This document shows, one piece after another, positions 12,410-48,565 of a stretch of 54,537 bases of DNA. Position 1 is the stretch's first letter; the number at the start of each line of letters is the position of its first letter. The stretch comes from Ferrithrix thermotolerans DSM 19514 (GTDB lineage: Bacteria; Actinomycetota; Acidimicrobiia; Acidimicrobiales; Ilumatobacteraceae). The notes beneath the pieces are model-generated. The model was not told the DNA's origin. It saw nothing but the letters and a program-made list of their open reading frames with translations, and did not search any database. The DNA is taken from contig CAMASN010000015.1 in assembly GCA_945861025.1 (NCBI GenBank), positions 1 through 54,537 on the forward strand, written 5' to 3'. The position numbers and the translations under genes were made by a program.

Positions 12410-14266
12410 TTAGCCCACGGCCACGATGTCGGCCAAGACGTGAACAGGCGCGTTGCTTGCGAGGCAGAACCTGCCATCGGCGATGTTGGTCATGATCGAG
12501 AACGTGGCTTGGCGATTTGGTGTCACCACCGCAATCGAACCCTCTGGCCGAGGCCGAGCACATGGCCACATGAACACGGAAGCGCCGTTGGCTCCACCGA
12601 TCAAGGTGAGGCTCACTTGGGCAGCAGTTACGTTCGCCGGAGCGCCTGCGAGTGGCCCGAGCACAACCGGTGTTGGCGCGGCGCCGAGCGGCACGTTCAA
12701 CGTGCGTGAATCGAACCGACGAGTCGCTGTGATGGGGAACACGCCCGGCGCATCTTGACGCCACACGGTGGTGACATCTACGAGCACGTTCATGGCGACT
12801 GTTGGCTTCAGGCATAGGCCGGTTGAATTCATCCGAACCACCATGCTGAACGAGGTCATCCGTGAGGCAACAAATGGTGCCTTCACTTCGCTACCTCCAC
12901 ATGGGGTGATCAACAGCGTGCCCGCCGAAGCAGGGTCAATCACGGTGAAGGTGGCGGTTAACGCTTGGCTATCGGCCGATGCCCCAAGCATCTCTGGAGT
13001 GAGCGTGACCAACTGGTTCGCTGCGAGGCGCTTGGTGGTGCGTGTATCGATGACCCGATGCGTTGCTACAGGAAGGGCGCCGGCGCCCGCCGACTCAAGC
13101 TGTGCGACGACTGTGATGCGTGCTTGAGCTGCACCGGTGCTAGTGGCACAGATCTGACCCTCGGTGACCGCCACGGTGGCGTATCCGATGGCCATAGGTC
13201 CGGCCTCAACCGTTAACGAGGTCGCCGCTGGGACGGGTGCGCCGCATGGGTGCACGACGATGCTGGCTGGCTGCTTGCTTGTGGCCGAGATGCGAACGAC
13301 GACTGCTGCTGCTGTTTTGCTGAGTCCGTTGACACCGGCGACCTTGATCTTCTTGGTGACGGTTGGCTTCAGGGCCGATGCAGACGAGGCGGTGAGCACT
13401 GCAACTGGAGTGATGAAGTGCCAGCGCAGCGCTGGGTCATAGCTGAGGCCAGGAACGGCTGGAGAAGGAGGTGCCGTGGTGGTTGTGGTTGTCGTGGTTG
13501 TGGTTGTCGTGGTGGTTGCGGGAACGGTGGTCGTGGTGGTTGGCGAAGTCGGTGGAGCGGTGCCCGTCAGCGTTGTTGTTGAAGAGAGCGCAATCGCTGC
13601 AGCTGGTAAGTCGGTGGTCTTGCAACCATTCACGGCGATGACGCTTTGGGTTGGGTTGATTGGCCGCCCGCCTTGAGGATGAATCTCGAAGTGAAGGTGC
13701 GGCGTGCCTGCGTTGCCGGAGGCTCCGATGTATCCGATGATCTGGCCAGCCACCACGGTTGAGCCAACCGACAATCCATCGGCGAAGGCCGACATGTGGG
13801 CGTAGAAGTAGTACGTGCCATCGGCAGTCGTGAGCCGCCATCCATTGCCGGCGAGTTGGCCGACTCGGTCGACGTAGCGCTTGGTCAGCGTGCCGTCGTT
13901 CACGGCATAGATGTTGAGACCCTTTTTGGCGATGATGTCGACACCCTCATGGCTGCGACCGCCCGAACGACTTGCGCCATATGAGTCCACGAAATCGCAC
14001 ATACCTTGTACCGGAAACTGAGCGAGGACGATGGTTGGCCCGGCGACGGTTGTGGTTGTGTTGGTTGACTTCTTGTTCGCTTTCTTGGTTGTCGTTGGGC
14101 CCGCAGCGCCAGCGTCGACAGAGGGGGTGACACCGGTTACCACCGCCAGGCTTGAGACCATCGCGAGCAACGAGCACACCAGCCCCACCCTGAGGCGGCG
14201 ACGGCGAACAACAATGAAAGGGGCGCGAACTTGTTGATGTGATCTACGCGACTGATTGGCCAACAC
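12410..14266 (-). CDS. Secreted M23-family peptidase with Thr/Pro linker and three C-terminal repeat domains
   Basis: GTG at 14266 is chosen because GGAAGGAGG lies 6 nt upstream; a longer frame would begin inside the promoter. The protein has 618 residues. A signal/anchor segment (VGLVCSLLAMVSSLAVVTGV) is followed by an M23 domain with SHEGVDI and HLHFEIHP zinc ligands. A Thr/Pro linker with 14 consecutive Thr leads to three tandem beta-type repeats, each with a cysteine pair (HPCG/GQIC, TPCG/GLC, WPCA/GRFC) and two opening with HRVIDTR or RRFDSR. It is probably a cell-wall remodelling or surface protein under a WhiG-type promoter. Confidence 0.88.
   Translation of the reverse strand: MLANQSRRSHQQVRAPFIVVRRRRLRVGLVCSLLAMVSSLAVVTGVTPSVDAGAAGPTTTKKANKKSTNTTTTVAGPTIVLAQFPVQGMCDFVDSYGASRSGGRSHEGVDIIAKKGLNIYAVNDGTLTKRYVDRVGQLAGNGWRLTTADGTYYFYAHMSAFADGLSVGSTVVAGQIIGYIGASGNAGTPHLHFEIHPQGGRPINPTQSVIAVNGCKTTDLPAAAIALSSTTTLTGTAPPTSPTTTTTVPATTTTTTTTTTTTTTAPPSPAVPGLSYDPALRWHFITPVAVLTASSASALKPTVTKKIKVAGVNGLSKTAAAVVVRISATSKQPASIVVHPCGAPVPAATSLTVEAGPMAIGYATVAVTEGQICATSTGAAQARITVVAQLESAGAGALPVATHRVIDTRTTKRLAANQLVTLTPEMLGASADSQALTATFTVIDPASAGTLLITPCGGSEVKAPFVASRMTSFSMVVRMNSTGLCLKPTVAMNVLVDVTTVWRQDAPGVFPITATRRFDSRTLNVPLGAAPTPVVLGPLAGAPANVTAAQVSLTLIGGANGASVFMWPCARPRPEGSIAVVTPNRQATFSIMTNIADGRFCLASNAPVHVLADIVAVG
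13475..13516. repeat. Low-complexity threonine-codon tract
   Basis: Fourteen consecutive Thr codons, read on the minus strand as ACC/ACG/ACA, form the linker of the M23 protein. The tract may vary in length between strains. Confidence 0.85.
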
Positions 14267-14292
14267 GGCGCCTCCTTCCTGCTTCACAAGAG

Positions 14293-14320
14293 GTATCGGC
14301 ACGCATCACTGTGGTCTTGA
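14293..14320 (-). promoter_or_regulatory. FliA/WhiG-type promoter of the M23 gene
   Basis: Reading the minus strand: TCAA (14320-14317), 16-nt spacer, GCCGATAC (14300-14293). The consensus for FliA/WhiG sigma factors is TAAA-N15/16-GCCGATAA. A start near 14286 would give a leader of about 20 nt holding the strong Shine-Dalgarno. The flanks CTCAAG and GCGTGCCGAT.CCTCTT are shared with the promoter at 42784-42811. Confidence 0.7.
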
Positions 14321-25480: not shown

Positions 25481-26212
25481 CTAACTGAGTCTGAGAAAAT
25501 AGGCCCTCAGGCAGTCGACCAATCCGTCCAGAGAATGATCGGCTGCAACGGCGGTCACCTTGAGGCCTAATTGGTGCGCTACCTGCGCTGTTGCTGGTCC
25601 GATGGCAAATACCGGAGGTGAAACTTCGGCTCCAAAGACATCGACCCACGCGCTCACTGCAGAGCCACTCGCAAACAACACGGCGTCGGCGCCGAGCGCT
25701 TCCGATTGCTCATCGGGCGTGGGAATGCGCGGCTGAGTGCGATAGGCGGACGCGACGGTGAGGTTCCAGCCCTTTGCGACCAAGCCAAGCGCCAAGGCCG
25801 GGCGTGCTTGCTCGGCTTGAGCCAACAGCACAGTGCCGCTGCCGTCGGGGAACTCGGCGAGGAGTCCCTCGGCGATCTGGCGCCGCGGCACGAGATCGGC
25901 GGGCACCGAGAGCGCAGCGGCGGTGGCGGTGCCGACTGCGGCAACGAGCGGACGATGTTCGCCGAGTTGCTGCAGAGCCTCGGCCACGCGGACGGCTCCG
26001 TTTGGCGAGCTGAGTACCAGCCAGTCGAACGTGTCGAGTGTTTCGAGAGCGTTGCGTAATGCGGCGCCGCCGTCGGAGGGCTCAGCGATGTCGATGAGCG
26101 ACAATGCGATTGGCTCGGCGCCGAGGGCACGCAGCCGTTGCGCCAGCGGCTCAATCTGATCGACCGCTCGAGTCATGACGACTCGGCGGTGAGCCAGCGG
26201 CAGTTCGGTCAA
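25481..26212 (-). CDS. hemD: Uroporphyrinogen-III synthase HemD
   Basis: HemD closes hydroxymethylbilane into uroporphyrinogen III. The start is probably TTG 26212, overlapping the hemC stop as TTGA. It gives a normal N-terminus ending in PLAHRRVVMTRA and 243 residues. ATG 26176 would cut off the first strand. Family traits are WLVLSSPNGAVRVAEAL, VAAVGTATAAAL and DAVLFASGSAVSAWVDVFG. Sequence identity in this family is low, but the position after hemC is decisive. It is the last heme gene of the rex-hemA-hemC-hemD cluster. Confidence 0.88.
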   Translation of the reverse strand: MTELPLAHRRVVMTRAVDQIEPLAQRLRALGAEPIALSLIDIAEPSDGGAALRNALETLDTFDWLVLSSPNGAVRVAEALQQLGEHRPLVAAVGTATAAALSVPADLVPRRQIAEGLLAEFPDGSGTVLLAQAEQARPALALGLVAKGWNLTVASAYRTQPRIPTPDEQSEALGADAVLFASGSAVSAWVDVFGAEVSPPVFAIGPATAQVAHQLGLKVTAVAADHSLDGLVDCLRAYFLRLS

Positions 26213-37805: not shown

Positions 37806-38201
37806 CTAAATCGATTGGGCGACGAAGCTCTCGTACACGTTGAGCAGGGCTTGCTTTTGCTCTGGTGTCAACAATTGGTCGGTGCCGATGGCCTCACGTA
37901 CGCCGACCACCGTGTTGAGATCGTCGGGAAGGATGCCCGCCCGCACATACAGCGACTCGACCGAGATCTTGAGGGCCTTGGCGATCTGCTGCAGAATTTC
38001 GGCTGAGGGACGGCGAAGGCCTCGCTCGATCTGCGACAGATAGGTGTTTGAGACGCTGGCCACATCGGCCAAACCACGCACCGACATACGCGCCGTTTCG
38101 CGCTGATTGCGAATGAACTCGCCCACATCGGCGAGTCGGTTGCCGAGTTCGTTGCGCAGTGCAGGCCTGGCGTCGGGAGCAGTGCCAGACGATGGTTTCA
38201 C
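37806..38201 (-). CDS. XRE-family helix-turn-helix regulator
   Basis: GTG 38201 overlaps the stop of the RsiG-like gene (GTGA) and gives 131 residues. The HTH at about residues 30-85 reads RMSVRGLADVASVSNTYLSQ, ERGLRRPSAEILQQIAKAL. The C-terminal part (LTPEQKQALLNVYESF) is conserved in the actinobacterial family. Coupling to the RsiG-like anti-sigma puts it in the same WhiG-type transcript. Its targets are unknown. A longer frame to 38402 lies inside the overlapping gene and is rejected. Confidence 0.88.
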   Translation of the reverse strand: MKPSSGTAPDARPALRNELGNRLADVGEFIRNQRETARMSVRGLADVASVSNTYLSQIERGLRRPSAEILQQIAKALKISVESLYVRAGILPDDLNTVVGVREAIGTDQLLTPEQKQALLNVYESFVAQSI

Positions 38202-38692
38202 TCGTCGGCCAGCAGGTCGTCGACCTTGGCCTCGCCGTCGCGGTAGCGGCGCACCAGTTCGGCGCTGAGGGCATCGATGGTGCCAAACAACTCGCGCCGT
38301 TCGCTCGAACGAGCGTGCTCGAACGCCTGCAGGGCGTCGCTGAGCGCAGTGAGTTCGGTGTCGTTGAGTTCGGTGATGTGATGGGCCCCGAGGCTGCTGC
38401 ACAGTTCGTCAAGTTCGACAGCGATCGGGTGATCGCTGAGGTCGACGGTGGGGCGAGGTGGGCGTGCAGGACCGCTATTGAGATGGCGACCCAAGATGGC
38501 CGGCAGATCGTCGGACACGGTGCGGTCGTTGCCGTTGTCGCGCCGCTTCTGCTCGGCCGAAACAAGGTCGAGTCGGGCCTGCACCAAACGCCGCACGTAG
38601 CTGATGGCGTCTTCGGCGGCCTGCTGCTGCGAACGCAGTTCGCGAAGGTCGGCGAGCGAGAGTGTGGTTGGGTCAACTGATGGGTTATTCAT
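38198..38692 (-). CDS. rsiG: RsiG-like c-di-GMP-binding anti-sigma factor (anti-WhiG type)
   Basis: A 164-residue, highly charged, helical protein. Residues 27-42 read E27-x3-S31-x2-R34-x3-Q38-x3-D42, exactly the c-di-GMP-binding signature of Streptomyces RsiG. Residues 125-140 repeat it as E125-x3-S129-x2-R132-x3-F136-x3-D140, with Gln replaced by Phe. In Streptomyces, RsiG with c-di-GMP binds and inactivates sigma-WhiG; both motifs lie on an antiparallel coiled coil. AGGAG lies 5 nt before the ATG. A FliA/WhiG-type promoter 71 nt upstream suggests autoregulation. The sigma factor is not in this window. Confidence 0.8.
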   Translation of the reverse strand: MNNPSVDPTTLSLADLRELRSQQQAAEDAISYVRRLVQARLDLVSAEQKRRDNGNDRTVSDDLPAILGRHLNSGPARPPRPTVDLSDHPIAVELDELCSSLGAHHITELNDTELTALSDALQAFEHARSSERRELFGTIDALSAELVRRYRDGEAKVDDLLADE

Positions 38693-38701
38693 AAAGTCTC
38701 C

Positions 38702-38944
38702 TCAGACCGCTCCACCCGAAACGGGTGGCAGAACAGCCACTTCGTCGCGGGCCGAAATGACAGTATCGGCATCGGCCGATTCTCCGTTTACCCAGATTTT
38801 GCAACTGCCGAGCACAGCGGTGAACGCCGAGCCGTAACGACCTTGGGCTACTGCGAGCAATTCGCCAACCGTGTGCCCAGGCAGTTCGTCGCGACCGACG
38901 CCCGCTGCCTCGCGGGCAGATGCGAAGAGTCGCAGAATGGCCAC
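38702..38944 (-). CDS. MoaD/ThiS-family sulfur carrier protein
   Basis: An 80-residue beta-grasp protein: AILRLFASAREAAG at the N-terminus, IWVNGESADADTVISARDEV and VAVLPPVSGG near the end. MoaD donates sulfur to molybdopterin from a C-terminal GG thiocarboxylate. Here two residues (Ala-Val) follow the GG, so it would need trimming or would be inactive as a donor. No other moa gene is present. Its coding sequence holds the promoter of the rsiG-like gene. Confidence 0.82.
   Translation of the reverse strand: MAILRLFASAREAAGVGRDELPGHTVGELLAVAQGRYGSAFTAVLGSCKIWVNGESADADTVISARDEVAVLPPVSGGAV
38763..38790 (-). promoter_or_regulatory. FliA/WhiG-type promoter upstream of the RsiG-like gene
   Basis: Minus strand: TAAA (38790-38787), 16-nt spacer, GCCGATAC (38770-38763). 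It matches TAAA-N15/16-GCCGATAA at 11 of 12 bases, the best site in the window. It is inside moaD coding sequence; a start near 38756 leaves a 64-nt leader before the rsiG ATG. Confidence 0.7.
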
Positions 38945-39626: not shown

Positions 39627-40205
39627 GTGAACAACGAGCTACGTCTTTTCGAAGACCACGAATACACCGAAACCTCTGTCGAATCCCTAACGGTCGAAAC
39701 CGTTTCCGAAGCTGCGGCAGGCCCGGCGTTTGTTGTAGAGATCGAACGATCCGCACGCCGCAAGCGAACGGTTGGCGCGCAACTCGTTGGCGGTGTTCTC
39801 AAAATCGTGATCCCATCGTGGATGAGCCGAGTCGAGCAACAGCATTGGGTCGATGTCATGAGCCGACGCTTCGAGCGCAAGATGTCTACCGACCGCGTCG
39901 ACCTCGTTGAACGAGCGCTCACGTTGGCGCGTCGTCACGACCTGCCTCGCGCTCGAGAGATTTCTTGGTCCGACAACATGTTGTCGCGATGGGGGTCGTG
40001 CACGCCGACTACCGGATGCATCCGCATCAGCACGCGCCTCGCTTCGTTTCCCGACTGGGTGCTCGACTACGTCATCGTGCACGAACTCGCCCATCTTGAG
40101 GTTGGCGATCACTCAGCCGAGTTTTGGCGTCTCGCCCATCGCTACCCAAAGGCCGAGCGGGCGATTGGCTATCTCATTGCGAAATCGGGCGACGAACACG
40201 ACTAG
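39627..40205 (+). CDS. YgjP/SprT-like zinc metallopeptidase (DUF45/M48-type)
   Basis: A 192-residue protein. The signature VIVHELAHLEVGDHSAEFW holds the zinc-binding HExxH and downstream His of the YgjP-like family. The preceding WGSCTPTTGCIRISTRL matches the family core. GTG 39627 has a near-perfect Shine-Dalgarno AAGGAGGT at 39613-39620. The N-terminal 60 residues are acidic and variable. The 3' end overlaps the convergent glycosyltransferase-like gene by 32 nt. Substrate unknown. Confidence 0.88.
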   Translation: MNNELRLFEDHEYTETSVESLTVETVSEAAAGPAFVVEIERSARRKRTVGAQLVGGVLKIVIPSWMSRVEQQHWVDVMSRRFERKMSTDRVDLVERALTLARRHDLPRAREISWSDNMLSRWGSCTPTTGCIRISTRLASFPDWVLDYVIVHELAHLEVGDHSAEFWRLAHRYPKAERAIGYLIAKSGDEHD

Positions 40206-42702
40206 CGGGTGCTGATGACAACATCACGCTTCCCGCGAGCATTGCAACCATCAACAGCACCATCAGCACCGAGAAGTTGCCACCTGTCGTTTGCGGGCTG
40301 GTGTCAATCTGCTGGCTCGACGGCGCGGGCAGGTTCCTCATCTGGGGAGCTCCCGCAACTGTCACTGCGCGCAAGGTGCCTTGGGTTGCATTCGTCCCGT
40401 TTGATGGATTGGCAATGGCTGTGTCTGTATCGATGCCATTGGTCATCGCTGCGGGCGCCATGGTGATCGTGCCGGTTCCGCTGAGGTTGATCACAGCTGG
40501 ATTTTCGGCGAGCTCGTTCACGGGCATCTGGGCCACAATGACCGGCTGGCTATCTGGAAGCGGTGGCTCTACCGAGAGCCAGCAGGCCTCCCCGGTTACG
40601 TCGAGGCCATATTGACCCAGCGCATCGGTGGTCGTGCTGAGAACTGTTCCGTATGCATCGTCGGCTGTTCCGAAGGCCCCATCGGGCCCGGCGTTGGTTG
40701 AGCACACAGCAACGACAGGAATGCCACTGACCGATTCAGCTGACGTTTCATCGGCAACAACCGTGCCGACGACACGGCGTGTCACCGGAGCGGTGGCCTC
40801 TACATCAATCGGGGCGATCGACAGTACGACGGCGAGCAACGCGAACAACGTTGCAACTCGAAGTGCGACACGGCCAGGACTCGCTACCGCGGCGATGGGT
40901 ATGTTGACTTGACGGACACCGACCTGCGAACCGGCCATGCTTGCCCGAGCGGGAATGACGGCGCAGCTCTCAGCGAGCGCATTCATTGCCCACTGATCTG
41001 CATCGTAGAACTCAACACCGATGCGCCATGCTCCGGCCATGTCGGCACGAACATTGCGCACGACACAAGGAATGTCGAGCGACGTGATACCCGATTCGCT
41101 TGGGACGGTGAACGACAAGCGATGCCTGCCGCCTTCGCGAACTCGTACTGACTGATCGGCGAGCAAGCCGGCACCGAACATGGTGATGTCCGATACGTAC
41201 AGCCCGTACTCGTCGAGGCGAGCGGTACCCGATGCCTGAAGGCGAAGTGCCCGCCTGCTGTGGCGGCGCCACGTGAGGAGCCGCATCGAGTCGAGCGCAG
41301 CACCGAGTAGCCACAGCGCTACCGCCGTAAGACCGATCTGGATGTCCTTGTCCATCGGACGCAGTGCGTGGGTGAAACGGTCAGAGATACCGCGGATCAA
41401 CAGCACAGCGTTGATTGCCATGATCAAGATCATCGACACGTTCAGCGAACGCACGGAGTTACGAACCCGGTCACCAGGGCGCAAGGCCCCGTTTGACAAC
41501 AGGGTCAACGCTGCCGACGACGTCACGAACATCGGCAGCCAGAGGCAGGCCATCGCAGGAATTGACAGATTGAACGGAGCTCGCCCGGCGAGTAGTGACC
41601 CGAAGATGATGGCCGTCAAGACAACGCGGCGAACACGGTCGGCTGATCGCATTGACCACGCTGCGAGCGCAAGACGGTCACGGAGATGAACGCCGCGAGC
41701 CCGAACCGCGCCATTCTTGCCGACAAGCAACTGCCACCCGGCGCTTGCAACGGCGGCGCGGTTTGCGGCGACTGTGGATGAAGCGATCAGCGGCGTTTCG
41801 ACGACTACTGCGACGCCTGACGCACCGACAACGCGGATGCCGTTCGCCGCGAGGCGAGGCATCAGTTCGAACAGCGTTTGATGCCGAGTTCCGGTACACA
41901 GGTCGAGATCTGTCAACGCGCTACGGCGTACGAGGGCGCCGCTACCGGTGACAATGCCCGTGCCCCTGCGGCCAAGGCCCGGGTTGAGTGCTGTGCGTTC
42001 GAAAGTGAGTTCATGGCGAGCGCTCGGTGCATTTTCGGATGCGACACCAGGTACCGAACCAACAACACCTTGCACCACACCAATCGAGCTATCGCTCACC
42101 CAGTGCGTCAACGTCTGCACTGCGTCGACTGCAGGAACGTCGCCTGCGTTCAGCAGGAGAAAGAACTCGTGCTCCGAGGCAGCGAAGGCGGCGGCCAATC
42201 CCGTGGTGTCGTTGGCTGCGGAGTCTTGGAACGTTGCCCCAAACTCAAGAGCAATCCGAACGATGTCGTTGCGGGCAGCGAGGTCGACCACGATCGCTTT
42301 CGGCGACGATGGATCGTGCTGCAGAGAAACCAGAGTGGCTCGAAGATCTTGCGCGGTGCTTGCAGTGGCGATAACGACCACGTCGTGATCAAGCTTCATT
42401 GGACGCTCAAACGTTGGGGCGACCGAGTCGTCAGCGCCCGATCGCCACAGTGCCCAGACGAACACGGCCACAGTGGCGACGCCGGAAATTTCGAGTGCGA
42501 GCGCTGGAATGGCCAGCCACCATGTGACCACACCGGTCGTGCTGTGCAGCGACCACACGCTGCGCCAGACGAGATAGCCGACACTCACGAAGAGAGCGAT
42601 AACACTGAGCTGACGACCGGCGCGGTGTAGCTGCGCGGGGTGCAACGAGGTTGCCGCCTGGTTCTCGTGATGCTGTTGAAGTGAGTCTGTGGTCCGACTC
42701 AT
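40174..42702 (-). CDS. Membrane GT2-like protein with PilZ domain and C-terminal SdrD/CarboxypepD-like domain
   Basis: An 842-residue protein laid out like bacterial cellulose-synthase subunits. Two N-terminal membrane helices (about 33-50, 62-86) precede a GT2-like domain (105-330), more helices (360-470) and a PilZ domain with R483-x3-R487 and D505-x-T507-x2-G510. Then come a helix, a secreted beta domain (GPDGAFGTADDAYG) and a C-terminal helix. GT2 signature residues are degenerate: LLLNAGD for D-x-D, no TED and no QxxRW. It may be a c-di-GMP-responsive, non-catalytic exporter or sensor. A FliA/WhiG-type promoter is upstream. Confidence 0.8.
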   Translation of the reverse strand: MSRTTDSLQQHHENQAATSLHPAQLHRAGRQLSVIALFVSVGYLVWRSVWSLHSTTGVVTWWLAIPALALEISGVATVAVFVWALWRSGADDSVAPTFERPMKLDHDVVVIATASTAQDLRATLVSLQHDPSSPKAIVVDLAARNDIVRIALEFGATFQDSAANDTTGLAAAFAASEHEFFLLLNAGDVPAVDAVQTLTHWVSDSSIGVVQGVVGSVPGVASENAPSARHELTFERTALNPGLGRRGTGIVTGSGALVRRSALTDLDLCTGTRHQTLFELMPRLAANGIRVVGASGVAVVVETPLIASSTVAANRAAVASAGWQLLVGKNGAVRARGVHLRDRLALAAWSMRSADRVRRVVLTAIIFGSLLAGRAPFNLSIPAMACLWLPMFVTSSAALTLLSNGALRPGDRVRNSVRSLNVSMILIMAINAVLLIRGISDRFTHALRPMDKDIQIGLTAVALWLLGAALDSMRLLTWRRHSRRALRLQASGTARLDEYGLYVSDITMFGAGLLADQSVRVREGGRHRLSFTVPSESGITSLDIPCVVRNVRADMAGAWRIGVEFYDADQWAMNALAESCAVIPARASMAGSQVGVRQVNIPIAAVASPGRVALRVATLFALLAVVLSIAPIDVEATAPVTRRVVGTVVADETSAESVSGIPVVAVCSTNAGPDGAFGTADDAYGTVLSTTTDALGQYGLDVTGEACWLSVEPPLPDSQPVIVAQMPVNELAENPAVINLSGTGTITMAPAAMTNGIDTDTAIANPSNGTNATQGTLRAVTVAGAPQMRNLPAPSSQQIDTSPQTTGGNFSVLMVLLMVAMLAGSVMLSSAPASRVRRPISQ

Positions 42703-42783: not shown

Positions 42784-42811
42784 GCATCGGCACGCAACGT
42801 CATGTCCTTGA
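42784..42811 (-). promoter_or_regulatory. FliA/WhiG-type promoter of the PilZ-GT2-like gene
   Basis: Minus strand: TCAA (42811-42808), 16-nt spacer, GCCGATGC (42791-42784), 81 nt before the ATG. The flanks match the M23 promoter closely: both have CTCAAG, then a 16-nt spacer ending in TGCGT, GCCGAT, one variable base and CCTCTT. Confidence 0.65.
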
Positions 42812-46559: not shown

Positions 46560-47243
46560 ATGTTCGGGCATGCTGGTGAAGTGCCCGTCTTCGACACCGA
46601 GCTGATCTGGCCGCCGCGCACTCGGTGGCAGCTGCCCGACCCTCGAACCGCCGATGCCGATGGCGTCGCCGCAGTCGGGGCCGATCTCGAACCTGGCACA
46701 TTGCTCGATGCTTATAGCTGCGGCATGTTTCCTATGCCCGCGGGCCGTCGCCGAATCTCATGGTGGTCGCCGGATCCGCGCGGCATCATTCCGCTCGATG
46801 GTCTGGTTGTGTCCTCCTCGCTTCGCAAGAGCTGCCGCCGCTTTGAGGTTCGCTTCAACACGTGCTTTCGCGAGGTGATGACACAGTGTGGCGATCCGCG
46901 TCGCCCGCACGGATGGATCAATCGTGAGTTCATCGATGCGTTCGAGCGGTTACACACGATGGGTTGGGCGCACAGCGTTGAGGTTTTCGACACCGAAAAT
47001 ACGCTCGTGGGTGGCCTCTACGGGGTGAAGATCAACCGCTTCTTTGCAGGCGAGAGCATGTTTTCTACAGCTCGTGACGCGTCAAAGGTGGCAATGGTGG
47101 CGCTGTTACGAGAGCTCAATGCAGCCAACGTGACCCTGTTCGATGTGCAGTGGACAACGGCGCATCTCACCTCGATGGGCGCGGTAGATGTGTCCCGCGT
47201 GCGCTATCTCGACCTGCTCGAAGAAGCGACACGGCCAGCGTGA
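46560..47243 (+). CDS. aat: Leucyl/phenylalanyl-tRNA-protein transferase Aat
   Basis: A 227-residue N-end-rule enzyme that adds Leu or Phe to N-terminal Arg/Lys of proteins for ClpS-ClpAP degradation. Signatures are LIWPPRTRW (family FPP), AYSCGMFPMP, ISWWSPDPRGIIPLD, HGWINREFIDAFERLH, LVGGLYGVKINRFFAGESMF and DVQWTTAHLTSMGAVDVSR (19 residues), all collinear. The 9-nt gap after the dehydrogenase indicates one transcript, which probably ends at the hairpins after 47267. Confidence 0.93.
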   Translation: MFGHAGEVPVFDTELIWPPRTRWQLPDPRTADADGVAAVGADLEPGTLLDAYSCGMFPMPAGRRRISWWSPDPRGIIPLDGLVVSSSLRKSCRRFEVRFNTCFREVMTQCGDPRRPHGWINREFIDAFERLHTMGWAHSVEVFDTENTLVGGLYGVKINRFFAGESMFSTARDASKVAMVALLRELNAANVTLFDVQWTTAHLTSMGAVDVSRVRYLDLLEEATRPA

Positions 47244-47373: not shown

Positions 47374-48565
47374 GTACTGCAATAGGTATCGGCAGACCTT
47401 TGAGGAACTTGAGCGATTCTTTAGGAAATTCCTGAGATTCTTTTTCGGGTTTCTTGCGCTGCTCAGCGTGGGTGTTGGCGCCGCCGGATGTTCGCGGGTT
47501 GCTTCGCCCCCACCATCGAGCGCGGTTGCTCAAGCCGATTGGCCGCGCGCACTCAGGTTGATTGCCGGGGCGCATCATGCTTCGACCAACGATCAGTTCG
47601 AGGTGTTCATCTGCGATGTGCCGTTGACCACCAGCGACCCGATCTATGGGCGGCTCACGCAACGCCTGAAGTTGACCCCCGAAGACCTTGTGGTCCGGCT
47701 CAATGACAACGTCACGCCCTACTTCGTGACCCTGTCGCACAACCTGTATCACCCTCGGTTCGTGGCCGGGGACACGTTGTCTATGTCCGCAACCGAAACC
47801 CACGACGCCTGTGTCGAGCGGGCCATCGACAGCAGCGCACCCACCACGTCGGCGGTGATGGTGGTGGCCACGGCCGAGCATCTGCCCAATCAGGCCGGTG
47901 GTTGGGGGCGCGCTGGCGAAACGTGCAATGTCGATTTCTGCCCTGCCAGCCAGACCCGACGCGCGCTATATGTAGGCGCTTCCGATTTTCACGCTTCGTG
48001 GGGGGCGGTGCCAGCGGTTGATCTCACCGAGCATGAGATCGGGCACACGCTTGGGCTGCCGCATAGCGGCGATTCGCAAAGCGCCAACGAGCACGCCAGC
48101 GGTATCGACCTGATGAGCAACAGCGCGTCGCCACGCGATGTTTACCCCGAGCGTCGTAACGGGCCCGACACGTTGGCAATCAATCGGCTCGCGCTGGGTT
48201 GGATGACCGCCGACGATGTTGTTGTATCGGCCCCCGCAGGCGGTGCGTTCACCCTGTGGCCGTCTACAGGCGACAGCGGCTTGCGGTTGCTGGCGATTGG
48301 TCTCACCGACACTTCGTTTCTCACCATCGAATATTTGACCGCCGACGGATTCAACGATTTTCTTCCAGCGTCTGGCGTAGCGGTACATCTGATTGAGGGG
48401 TCGGGTCGGGTGAGCGAACGCACCCAGACAACGCTCGGCAGCGCGGCTCCGCATCTGCAGTTGCTGTCAAAATCGGGTTCGTCACTCGATCTGTATGGAT
48501 GGACAATCACCGTTGGCGCGCCAGGTTCCACCGTGCAGGTAGAAGTTCGGCCTACTCACAGGTAA
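47357..48565 (+). CDS. Secreted zinc metalloprotease with HEIGHTLGLPH motif (metzincin-like)
   Basis: A 402-residue protein with the zinc site HEIGHTLGLPH (HExxHxxGxxH), followed by an extended beta-rich C-terminal part. The N-terminal region has basic and aromatic residues and a hydrophobic stretch (FFFGFLALLSVGVGAAG) ending at C45, a weak lipobox, so it is probably exported or a lipoprotein. The start is uncertain: ATG 47357 lies in the third hairpin stem and has no Shine-Dalgarno. The TGATG start at 47243 would read through all hairpins and looks non-protein. Substrate unknown. Confidence 0.75.
   Translation: MPCVCRYCNRYRQTFEELERFFRKFLRFFFGFLALLSVGVGAAGCSRVASPPPSSAVAQADWPRALRLIAGAHHASTNDQFEVFICDVPLTTSDPIYGRLTQRLKLTPEDLVVRLNDNVTPYFVTLSHNLYHPRFVAGDTLSMSATETHDACVERAIDSSAPTTSAVMVVATAEHLPNQAGGWGRAGETCNVDFCPASQTRRALYVGASDFHASWGAVPAVDLTEHEIGHTLGLPHSGDSQSANEHASGIDLMSNSASPRDVYPERRNGPDTLAINRLALGWMTADDVVVSAPAGGAFTLWPSTGDSGLRLLAIGLTDTSFLTIEYLTADGFNDFLPASGVAVHLIEGSGRVSERTQTTLGSAAPHLQLLSKSGSSLDLYGWTITVGAPGSTVQVEVRPTHR
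47386..47412 (-). promoter_or_regulatory. FliA/WhiG-type promoter pointing into the three-hairpin element
   Basis: Minus strand: TCAA (47412-47409) in the same CTCAAG context as at 14.3 and 42.8 kb, 15-nt spacer, GCCGATAC (47393-47386). It overlaps the 5' coding part of the metalloprotease and fires away from it. Confidence 0.45.

Follow-up and report, generated by a model that had tools for sequence, protein, structure and literature searches.

What does an anti-sigma factor of the kind that holds back sporulation in Streptomyces do in a bacterium whose lineage, to our knowledge, does not sporulate? This question is raised by one gene, rsiG, in a stretch of 54,537 nucleotides from Ferrithrix thermotolerans DSM 19514 (class Acidimicrobiia, family Ilumatobacteraceae), here called the window. 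For the Acidimicrobiia, the open-access literature that we searched holds no published answer as to what a twin-motif RsiG does outside the spore-formers, and the same search found nothing on the twin-motif switch or its regulon in Ilumatobacteraceae or Acidimicrobiia. The first RsiG paper is said to be that of Gallagher and others in 2020. RsiG homologues occur across the Actinobacteria, the twin-motif form was found in three of four Acidimicrobiales species, and, according to the discussion of the same paper, no sigma/anti-sigma pair other than RsiG-WhiG is known to be a c-di-GMP target (PMC8325347, PNAS 2021); in Streptomyces, RsiG is antagonised by the phosphodiesterase RmdB (PMC13232838). 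An earlier note on this DNA, made from the letters alone, had drawn attention to the twin motif in an actinobacterium other than Streptomyces; its occurrence stands, but not its novelty, given the published Acidimicrobiales cases (PMC8325347). RsiG itself is a member of a known family, and what is new is the aromatic second motif, together with a candidate regulon.

The same note had taken the open reading frame for an anti-sigma homologue of the RsiG type, and this is borne out by the product, which matched the Pfam RsiG model PF22802 in two stretches with 94.4 bits (cut-off 27). The nearest solved protein by sequence was S. venezuelae RsiG (AmfC; 6pfj chain T, E 1.4e-16), in an alignment that spans residues 10-162 of the window protein, runs without gaps through both motifs, and includes the C-terminal tail RRYRDGEAKVDDLLA, which the Streptomyces protein shares almost letter for letter. 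Because of this gap-free course through both motifs, we regard the two proteins as homologous and dismiss a chance motif, and the window frame is, judged by its sequence, genuinely related to the protein that restrains sporulation in Streptomyces. Among the relatives, 80 named ones were retained out of 119 found; 18 of their labels read Ilumatobacteraceae or Ilumatobacter, and most of the remaining ones only Actinomycetota, Acidimicrobiaceae, or similar. A 99% identical RsiG copy is present in a metagenome-assembled genome from Lake Pavin (L148), and with these labels, the source of the window is probably a freshwater bacterium of the Ilumatobacteraceae. Four metagenome records titled Bifidobacterium breve (L190, L192, L211, and L214) also hold an Ilumatobacteraceae-like RsiG, 45-48% identical to that of the window, and these titles look wrong. 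Viral relatives were considered as well and rejected: nine stretches of viral contigs fit a pattern, and none of the nine encodes a relative.

Both c-di-GMP motifs that had been read in the protein are confirmed: residues 27-42 follow E-x3-S-x2-R-x3-Q-x3-D exactly (E27, S31, R34, Q38, and D42), and residues 125-140 follow it save for Phe136 in the place of Gln (E125, S129, R132, F136, and D140), so that the Glu, Ser, Arg, and Asp that define the twin-motif class are all kept in both helices. In the six-frame segments of the window of at least 80 residues, amounting to about 61,000 residues, there is a single exact match to the motif (0.034 expected from residue shuffles), and when Q, H, F, or Y is allowed at its fourth position, there are two, both in the rsiG frame (0.094 expected from shuffles). 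A coiled coil carrying the motif residues on one face, which the note had left to structure prediction, was indeed predicted. AlphaFold2, supplied with an alignment of the window protein and 43 of the 80 relatives, in whose 44 rows F136 is invariant, modelled RsiG alone with a mean pLDDT of 86.1 and with two long helices, 13-53 and 111-151, each bearing one motif, as in an antiparallel two-helix coiled coil; the five motif residues of each helix span an arc of at most 80 degrees by simple arithmetic (100 degrees per residue). The fold search against the PDB returned 180 matches at E <=10, four of them at E <=0.001, all RsiG chains with TM scores of 0.69-0.77, and the top matches, 6pfv and 6pfj, are crystals of RsiG-WhiG-c-di-GMP. 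The single-motif homodimer of the Rubrobacter type does not apply, given that one chain holds the two motifs.

An anti-sigma factor of this kind calls for its sigma, and the WhiG/FliA-type sigma that the earlier note had looked to find in the same genome is encoded there: the FliA/WhiG model gave a single match above its cut-off (C27:26585-27241; 254.9 bits vs. 189.6), while six further sigma matches are all weaker and fall below that cut-off. In the 16-kb stretch around whiG lie genes that we take by reading to be comM, dprA, xerC, rpsB, tsf, pyrH, and frr, along with an M23 peptidase gene recognised by Pfam; local synteny has been described for whiG-like genes (PMC4255298, a 2013 review). 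In S. venezuelae, the WhiG residues that touch c-di-GMP are K57, G61, and R62 (PMC8325347), and the WhiG of the window genome matches them with KFVAGR, that is, K-x3-G-R, a pattern seen at 30 of 31 inspected WhiG loci, with L065 as the one where it was not found. The two genes also travel together in the class. In our survey of 296 genomes, RsiG was present in 184 and a FliA/WhiG match at E <=1e-40 in 200, and as raw genome tallies that ignore shared ancestry, 179 genomes had both, five RsiG only, 21 WhiG only, and 91 neither; counted in the same raw way with the 186 strong WhiG matches (E <=~2e-69), these numbers become 176, 8, 10, and 102, respectively. Five of the eight RsiG-only genomes at the stricter threshold are below 90% complete, and G122, G205, and G236 are above. 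The genomes with RsiG and no FliA/WhiG match at E <=1e-40 (G122, G205, G119, G182, and G290) are either incomplete assemblies or hold orphan anti-sigmas.

In the case of the promoters, the published flagellar/Rubrobacter consensus TAAA-N15-GCCGATAA with up to two mismatches gave 84 sites in the genome vs. 102 for its reversed control, and with no enrichment, it is uninformative in this genome. In the searched passages of the Actinoplanes papers, no FliA promoter consensus was found. Another motif, TCAAG-N15-GCCGATA, was taken from the DNA before a pair of genes for a roadblock protein and a Ras-like GTPase, where it stands at an equal distance in three genomes of the genus. Its exact form with N14/15 was searched in 16 genomes of our own choosing, counting only the -35 version TCAAG, and yielded 70 sites vs. 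8 for the reversed pattern and 9 at N18/19. The ten genomes with RsiG and WhiG account for 40 sites vs. 4 at N18/19, and four relatives outside the RsiG/WhiG surveys (G304, G318, G329, and G330) for 29 vs. 1, with RsiG seen at its locus in G318; the two genomes without RsiG and WhiG (G240 and G055) have one site vs. 4. The window genome alone has 7 sites vs. 2 at the wrong spacing, and some of these 7 look like chance, for example the one at 47387-47412 and that of a short-chain dehydrogenase gene, 165 nt ahead of it. In 25 of the 70 sites, the -10 is followed by an ATG or GTG at 7 nt, and in 11 at 6 nt, over a background of 2.3 per position, and 29 of these 36 start codons open frames of at least 70 codons; start codons played no part in the motif search, and the 36 include the three sites that defined the motif. 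A spacing-specific motif and such a start-codon peak are, as far as the letters of the DNA can tell, what genuine promoters of leaderless mRNAs would show, and the motif plus the start-codon rule makes a candidate regulon readable from sequence. When GCCGATA with a start codon at 6-7 nt was sought without requiring a -35, there were 4 cases in 1.26 Mb of other loci, three of them the roadblock promoter, which is too few for an independent derivation of the -35.

Two exact TCAAG-N14/15-GCCGATA sites were found in the window, with 0.01 expected from shuffles (Table 1). Behind one of them lies the M23 peptidase gene, whose homologue in G304 stands behind the same kind of site, and the other is either due to chance or gives a transcript antisense to the gene that ends at 47243. 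The PilZ gene, with its one-mismatch site, shares the strand of rsiG and terminates 1.5 kb upstream of it, and the PilZ domain of its product stands above the cut-off of 22.5 bits. The homologue of this 842-aa protein was sought in 11 genomes and found in six, near rsiG, with the corresponding site at one mismatch or fewer in G000, G161, G318, and G043 (one in G161, none in G318 and G043), at two in G051, and absent in G019. Being GT2-like besides having the PilZ domain, the protein is reminiscent of the c-di-GMP-activated polysaccharide synthases, with its glycosyltransferase-2 matches below the cut-off.

Table 1. Location of the features discussed; positions are those of the window unless a locus is named
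Feature	Position	Strand	Detail
XRE-type helix-turn-helix regulator, 131 aa	37806..38201	(-)	GTG start; HTH_3 47.3 bits
rsiG, twin-motif RsiG-family anti-sigma, 164 aa	38198..38692	(-)	ATG start; PF22802, 6pfj_T, fold match
c-di-GMP motif 2, residues 125-140	38273..38320	(-)	EHARSSERRELFGTID; Phe136 at the guanine-stacking position
c-di-GMP motif 1, residues 27-42, E-x3-S-x2-R-x3-Q-x3-D	38567..38614	(-)	EDAISYVRRLVQARLD
MoaD/ThiS-like protein, directly upstream of rsiG	38702..38944	(-)	ThiS 51.3 bits
WhiG-type site, two mismatches, inside the MoaD gene	38764-38790	(-)	71 nt before rsiG
PilZ-domain protein, 842 aa, candidate c-di-GMP effector and candidate WhiG target	40174..42702	(-)	PilZ 25.5 bits
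WhiG-type promoter candidate, TCAAG-N15-GCCGATG, one mismatch	42785..42811	(-)	81 nt before the PilZ gene start
M23 peptidase gene, behind the 14294-14320 site	12410..14287	(-)	Peptidase_M23 74.3 bits
WhiG-type promoter candidate, TCAAG-N15-GCCGATA, exact	14294..14320	(-)	GTG 5 nt past the -10
WhiG-type site, one mismatch	25537-25563	(-)	
WhiG-type site, exact	47387-47412	(-)	points against two plus-strand genes
Small protein without a Pfam match	L234:3042-3533	(-)	WhiG-type site L234:3609-3635 (-)
Roadblock/LC7 and Ras-like GTPase pair near type IV pilus genes	L234:15697-16722	(-)	WhiG-type promoter candidate

We sorted the genes behind the 70 sites into similarity groups and ran a Pfam scan on those that belong to 40 of the sites. 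Roadblock/LC7 proteins, a small protein without a Pfam match, and a membrane protein family each stand behind sites in five genomes, the last one in G304, G329, G318, G043, and G002; in the latter three, where its proximity to rsiG was looked at, it lies near that gene (in G002 by its coordinates). The roadblock/LC7 and Ras-like GTPase pair on L234 is presumably MglB/MglA-like, and its GTPase is present in 17 of 61 family genomes; on this contig, the gene of the small protein is found together with pilus genes. Enzymes with GGDEF or GGDEF-EAL domains make up one such group, with five sites (four of them scanned) spread over three genomes, and in the window genome, a FIST-domain gene with a site in front of it borders at its 3' end on a PAS-GGDEF-EAL gene, with which a feedback loop would close. 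HD_5 proteins and M23 peptidases follow two sites each, as do SpoIID-domain proteins (L263 and L307, in genomes G254 and G027), whose start codons lie 7 nt past the -10, and there is one NlpC/P60-LysM and one M15-type protein. On the surface side, PilT is behind two sites (one scanned, with the site about 250 nt ahead of the gene), a type IV pilin is behind one site in G161, and two Big_9/cadherin-like proteins and one sugar transferase also belong here, besides one OmpR-type response regulator. The targets include untidy ones too, namely the short-chain dehydrogenase, a UvrD-like helicase, a GDSL-like protein, and several without a match, and some of the 70 sites may be chance.

In Streptomyces, WhiG acts on regulators of sporulation, among them whiH (GntR-like) and whiI (response-regulator-like). 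The predicted targets here are, in contrast, surface, cell-wall, and c-di-GMP genes; no GntR match was found among the genes behind the 40 scanned sites out of 70, where the OmpR-type regulator and the two SpoIID proteins were seen. The genome has 8 GGDEF and 7 EAL matches, and one of its regions combines type IV pilus ATPases with a PilC-like gene. Flagella were considered as the output of the switch, but Flagellin_N has no match in the genome, which makes flagellar motility unlikely as such.

Promoters of the same kind were also sought before rsiG and whiG themselves. The site inside the MoaD gene has one mismatch in the nearest relatives, L149 and L150. Upstream of rsiG, the 80 related loci are no richer in the TAAA motif than shuffles or a control stretch, and the TCAAG motif with up to two mismatches was found within 300 bp in 12 of the 80 loci vs. 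2 of 400 letter shuffles, with controls of 0/80 at N18/19, 7/80 at N10/11, and 9/78 in the stretch 1 kb upstream; with 12/80 so close to the latter two values, a WhiG-type promoter before rsiG, and with it autoregulation, is possible but not supported. Before whiG, no WhiG-type site was found, the best candidate having four mismatches.

As a full explanation of this locus, we consider a c-di-GMP-gated RsiG-WhiG switch with a TCAAG-N14/15-GCCGATA regulon highly probable. By homology with the solved complexes, we infer that the RsiG chain would double back to form an antiparallel coiled coil, and that, when c-di-GMP is high, two c-di-GMP held on both motif helices would glue RsiG to WhiG and thus keep WhiG off. 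When c-di-GMP is low, WhiG would be freed to transcribe the TCAAG-N14/15-GCCGATA promoters, about half of them giving leaderless mRNAs, and its targets would comprise the roadblock/Ras-like GTPase pair of the pilus region, the pilin (in a relative), peptidoglycan hydrolases, and the PilZ protein near rsiG, while the c-di-GMP enzymes among the targets would feed back on the switch. Phe136 is possibly the aromatic, family-wide version of the stacking residue, and it would stack on guanine.

It could be argued instead that RsiG is a WhiG anti-sigma that is constitutive or gated otherwise, independently of c-di-GMP, with its second motif decaying, and the earlier note had indeed described one copy as partly altered. 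The exchange of Gln136 for Phe is real, and Phe stands at this position here and in 20 of the 61 distinct homologues aligned (the window protein plus 69 loci, 29 of them the best-scoring ones of the class survey and 40 picked by us, partly overlapping, with identical copies merged); position 27 is Asp in 9 of the 16 aligned family members, and the published stacking residues are Gln, or His in the first motif, this Q-to-H change being the sole exception to otherwise well conserved motifs and His being still capable of guanine stacking (PMC8325347). Against this, Ser and Arg are invariant in both motifs in 61/61 homologues, with E125 kept in 60/61 and D140 in 59/61, and in the solved complex, it is Ser that touches the ribose, and Arg and Asp that read the guanine (PMC8325347). 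Position 136 itself is limited to H (33), F (20), Q (7), and Y (1), as the Gln position of the first motif is to Q (46) and H (15), and the 16 aligned members of the family to which the window belongs have F there in 15 cases and Y in one (22 family genomes had an RsiG match). Because an aromatic F/Y is family-wide, we hold a decay of motif 2 unlikely, so that the alteration stands as described but not as a partial loss, and the apparent defect is recast as a conserved variant; as only the Q-to-H change of the first motif is published in the consulted parts of PMC8325347, H/F/Y in motif 2 is an undescribed variant with respect to them. The WhiG contact residues are also kept, and enzymes for both the synthesis and the breakdown of c-di-GMP are encoded in the genome, for all of which we give a c-di-GMP-independent RsiG little credence. 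That RsiG kept its fold for another partner, such as the overlapping XRE regulator, leaving WhiG free, is to us very improbable: the start of the XRE gene does overlap the rsiG stop by 4 nt (GTGA), and 22 of the 40 homologous loci of the class have a homologue of it beside rsiG and in the same orientation, but none was detected in 17 of the 40 (similarity search at E 1e-5, which diverged ones could escape), RsiG occurs almost only alongside WhiG, and its tail RRYRDGEAKVDDLLA is nearly that of the Streptomyces protein. The XRE regulator may still be a second output or partner of RsiG.

The regulon, for its part, could lie outside the RsiG-WhiG switch, with TCAAG-N14/15-GCCGATA being read by another sigma. 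The -35 half does differ from the TAAA of the published consensus, the WhiG-less control consists of two genomes, and four of the other 14 lie outside the WhiG survey. The known flagellar-type -10 has, however, GCCGATA as its core (PMC8325347), WhiG is the sole match to the FliA/WhiG model above the cut-off in the genome, and the two WhiG-less genomes gave fewer sites (1) than their own spacing control (4), and we therefore think another sigma unlikely as the reader of these promoters.

Returning to the c-di-GMP-gated RsiG-WhiG switch, it resembles that of S. venezuelae (6pfj, 6pfv) in the family of its RsiG, in the two motifs on an antiparallel coiled coil, in the C-terminal tail, and in a WhiG with the same c-di-GMP-contact residues, and differs from it in the Phe136 that replaces Gln in motif 2. 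With the single-motif RsiG of Rubrobacter and the Thermoleophilia (7lq2-7lq4), it shares a host that is not known to sporulate and candidate targets among type IV pili and c-di-GMP enzymes, which make up the Rubrobacter regulon (PMC8325347); unlike that RsiG, which has one motif and forms a homodimer, the present one has two motifs in a single chain, and unlike the Rubrobacter regulon, ours has TCAAG and not TAAA at the -35, plus cell-wall hydrolases and the PilZ protein near rsiG. It is one more member alongside the twin-motif RsiG of the same order, Acidimicrobiales, for which the consulted parts of PMC8325347 give neither target genes nor a Phe variant.

We lean slightly towards a broader reading, in which the switch with the aromatic motif 2 serves the Ilumatobacteraceae-like Acidimicrobiia as a c-di-GMP-gated lifestyle switch, in bacteria that are not known to sporulate and, in the case of this genome, have no flagellin match, over largely leaderless polarity and pilus genes, peptidoglycan hydrolases, c-di-GMP enzymes, and the PilZ protein near rsiG. 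If this were so, then in the twin-motif switch, too, control of the surface would seem to predate that of sporulation, and the PilZ/GT-like protein would be gated by c-di-GMP twice, once in its transcription and once in its activity.
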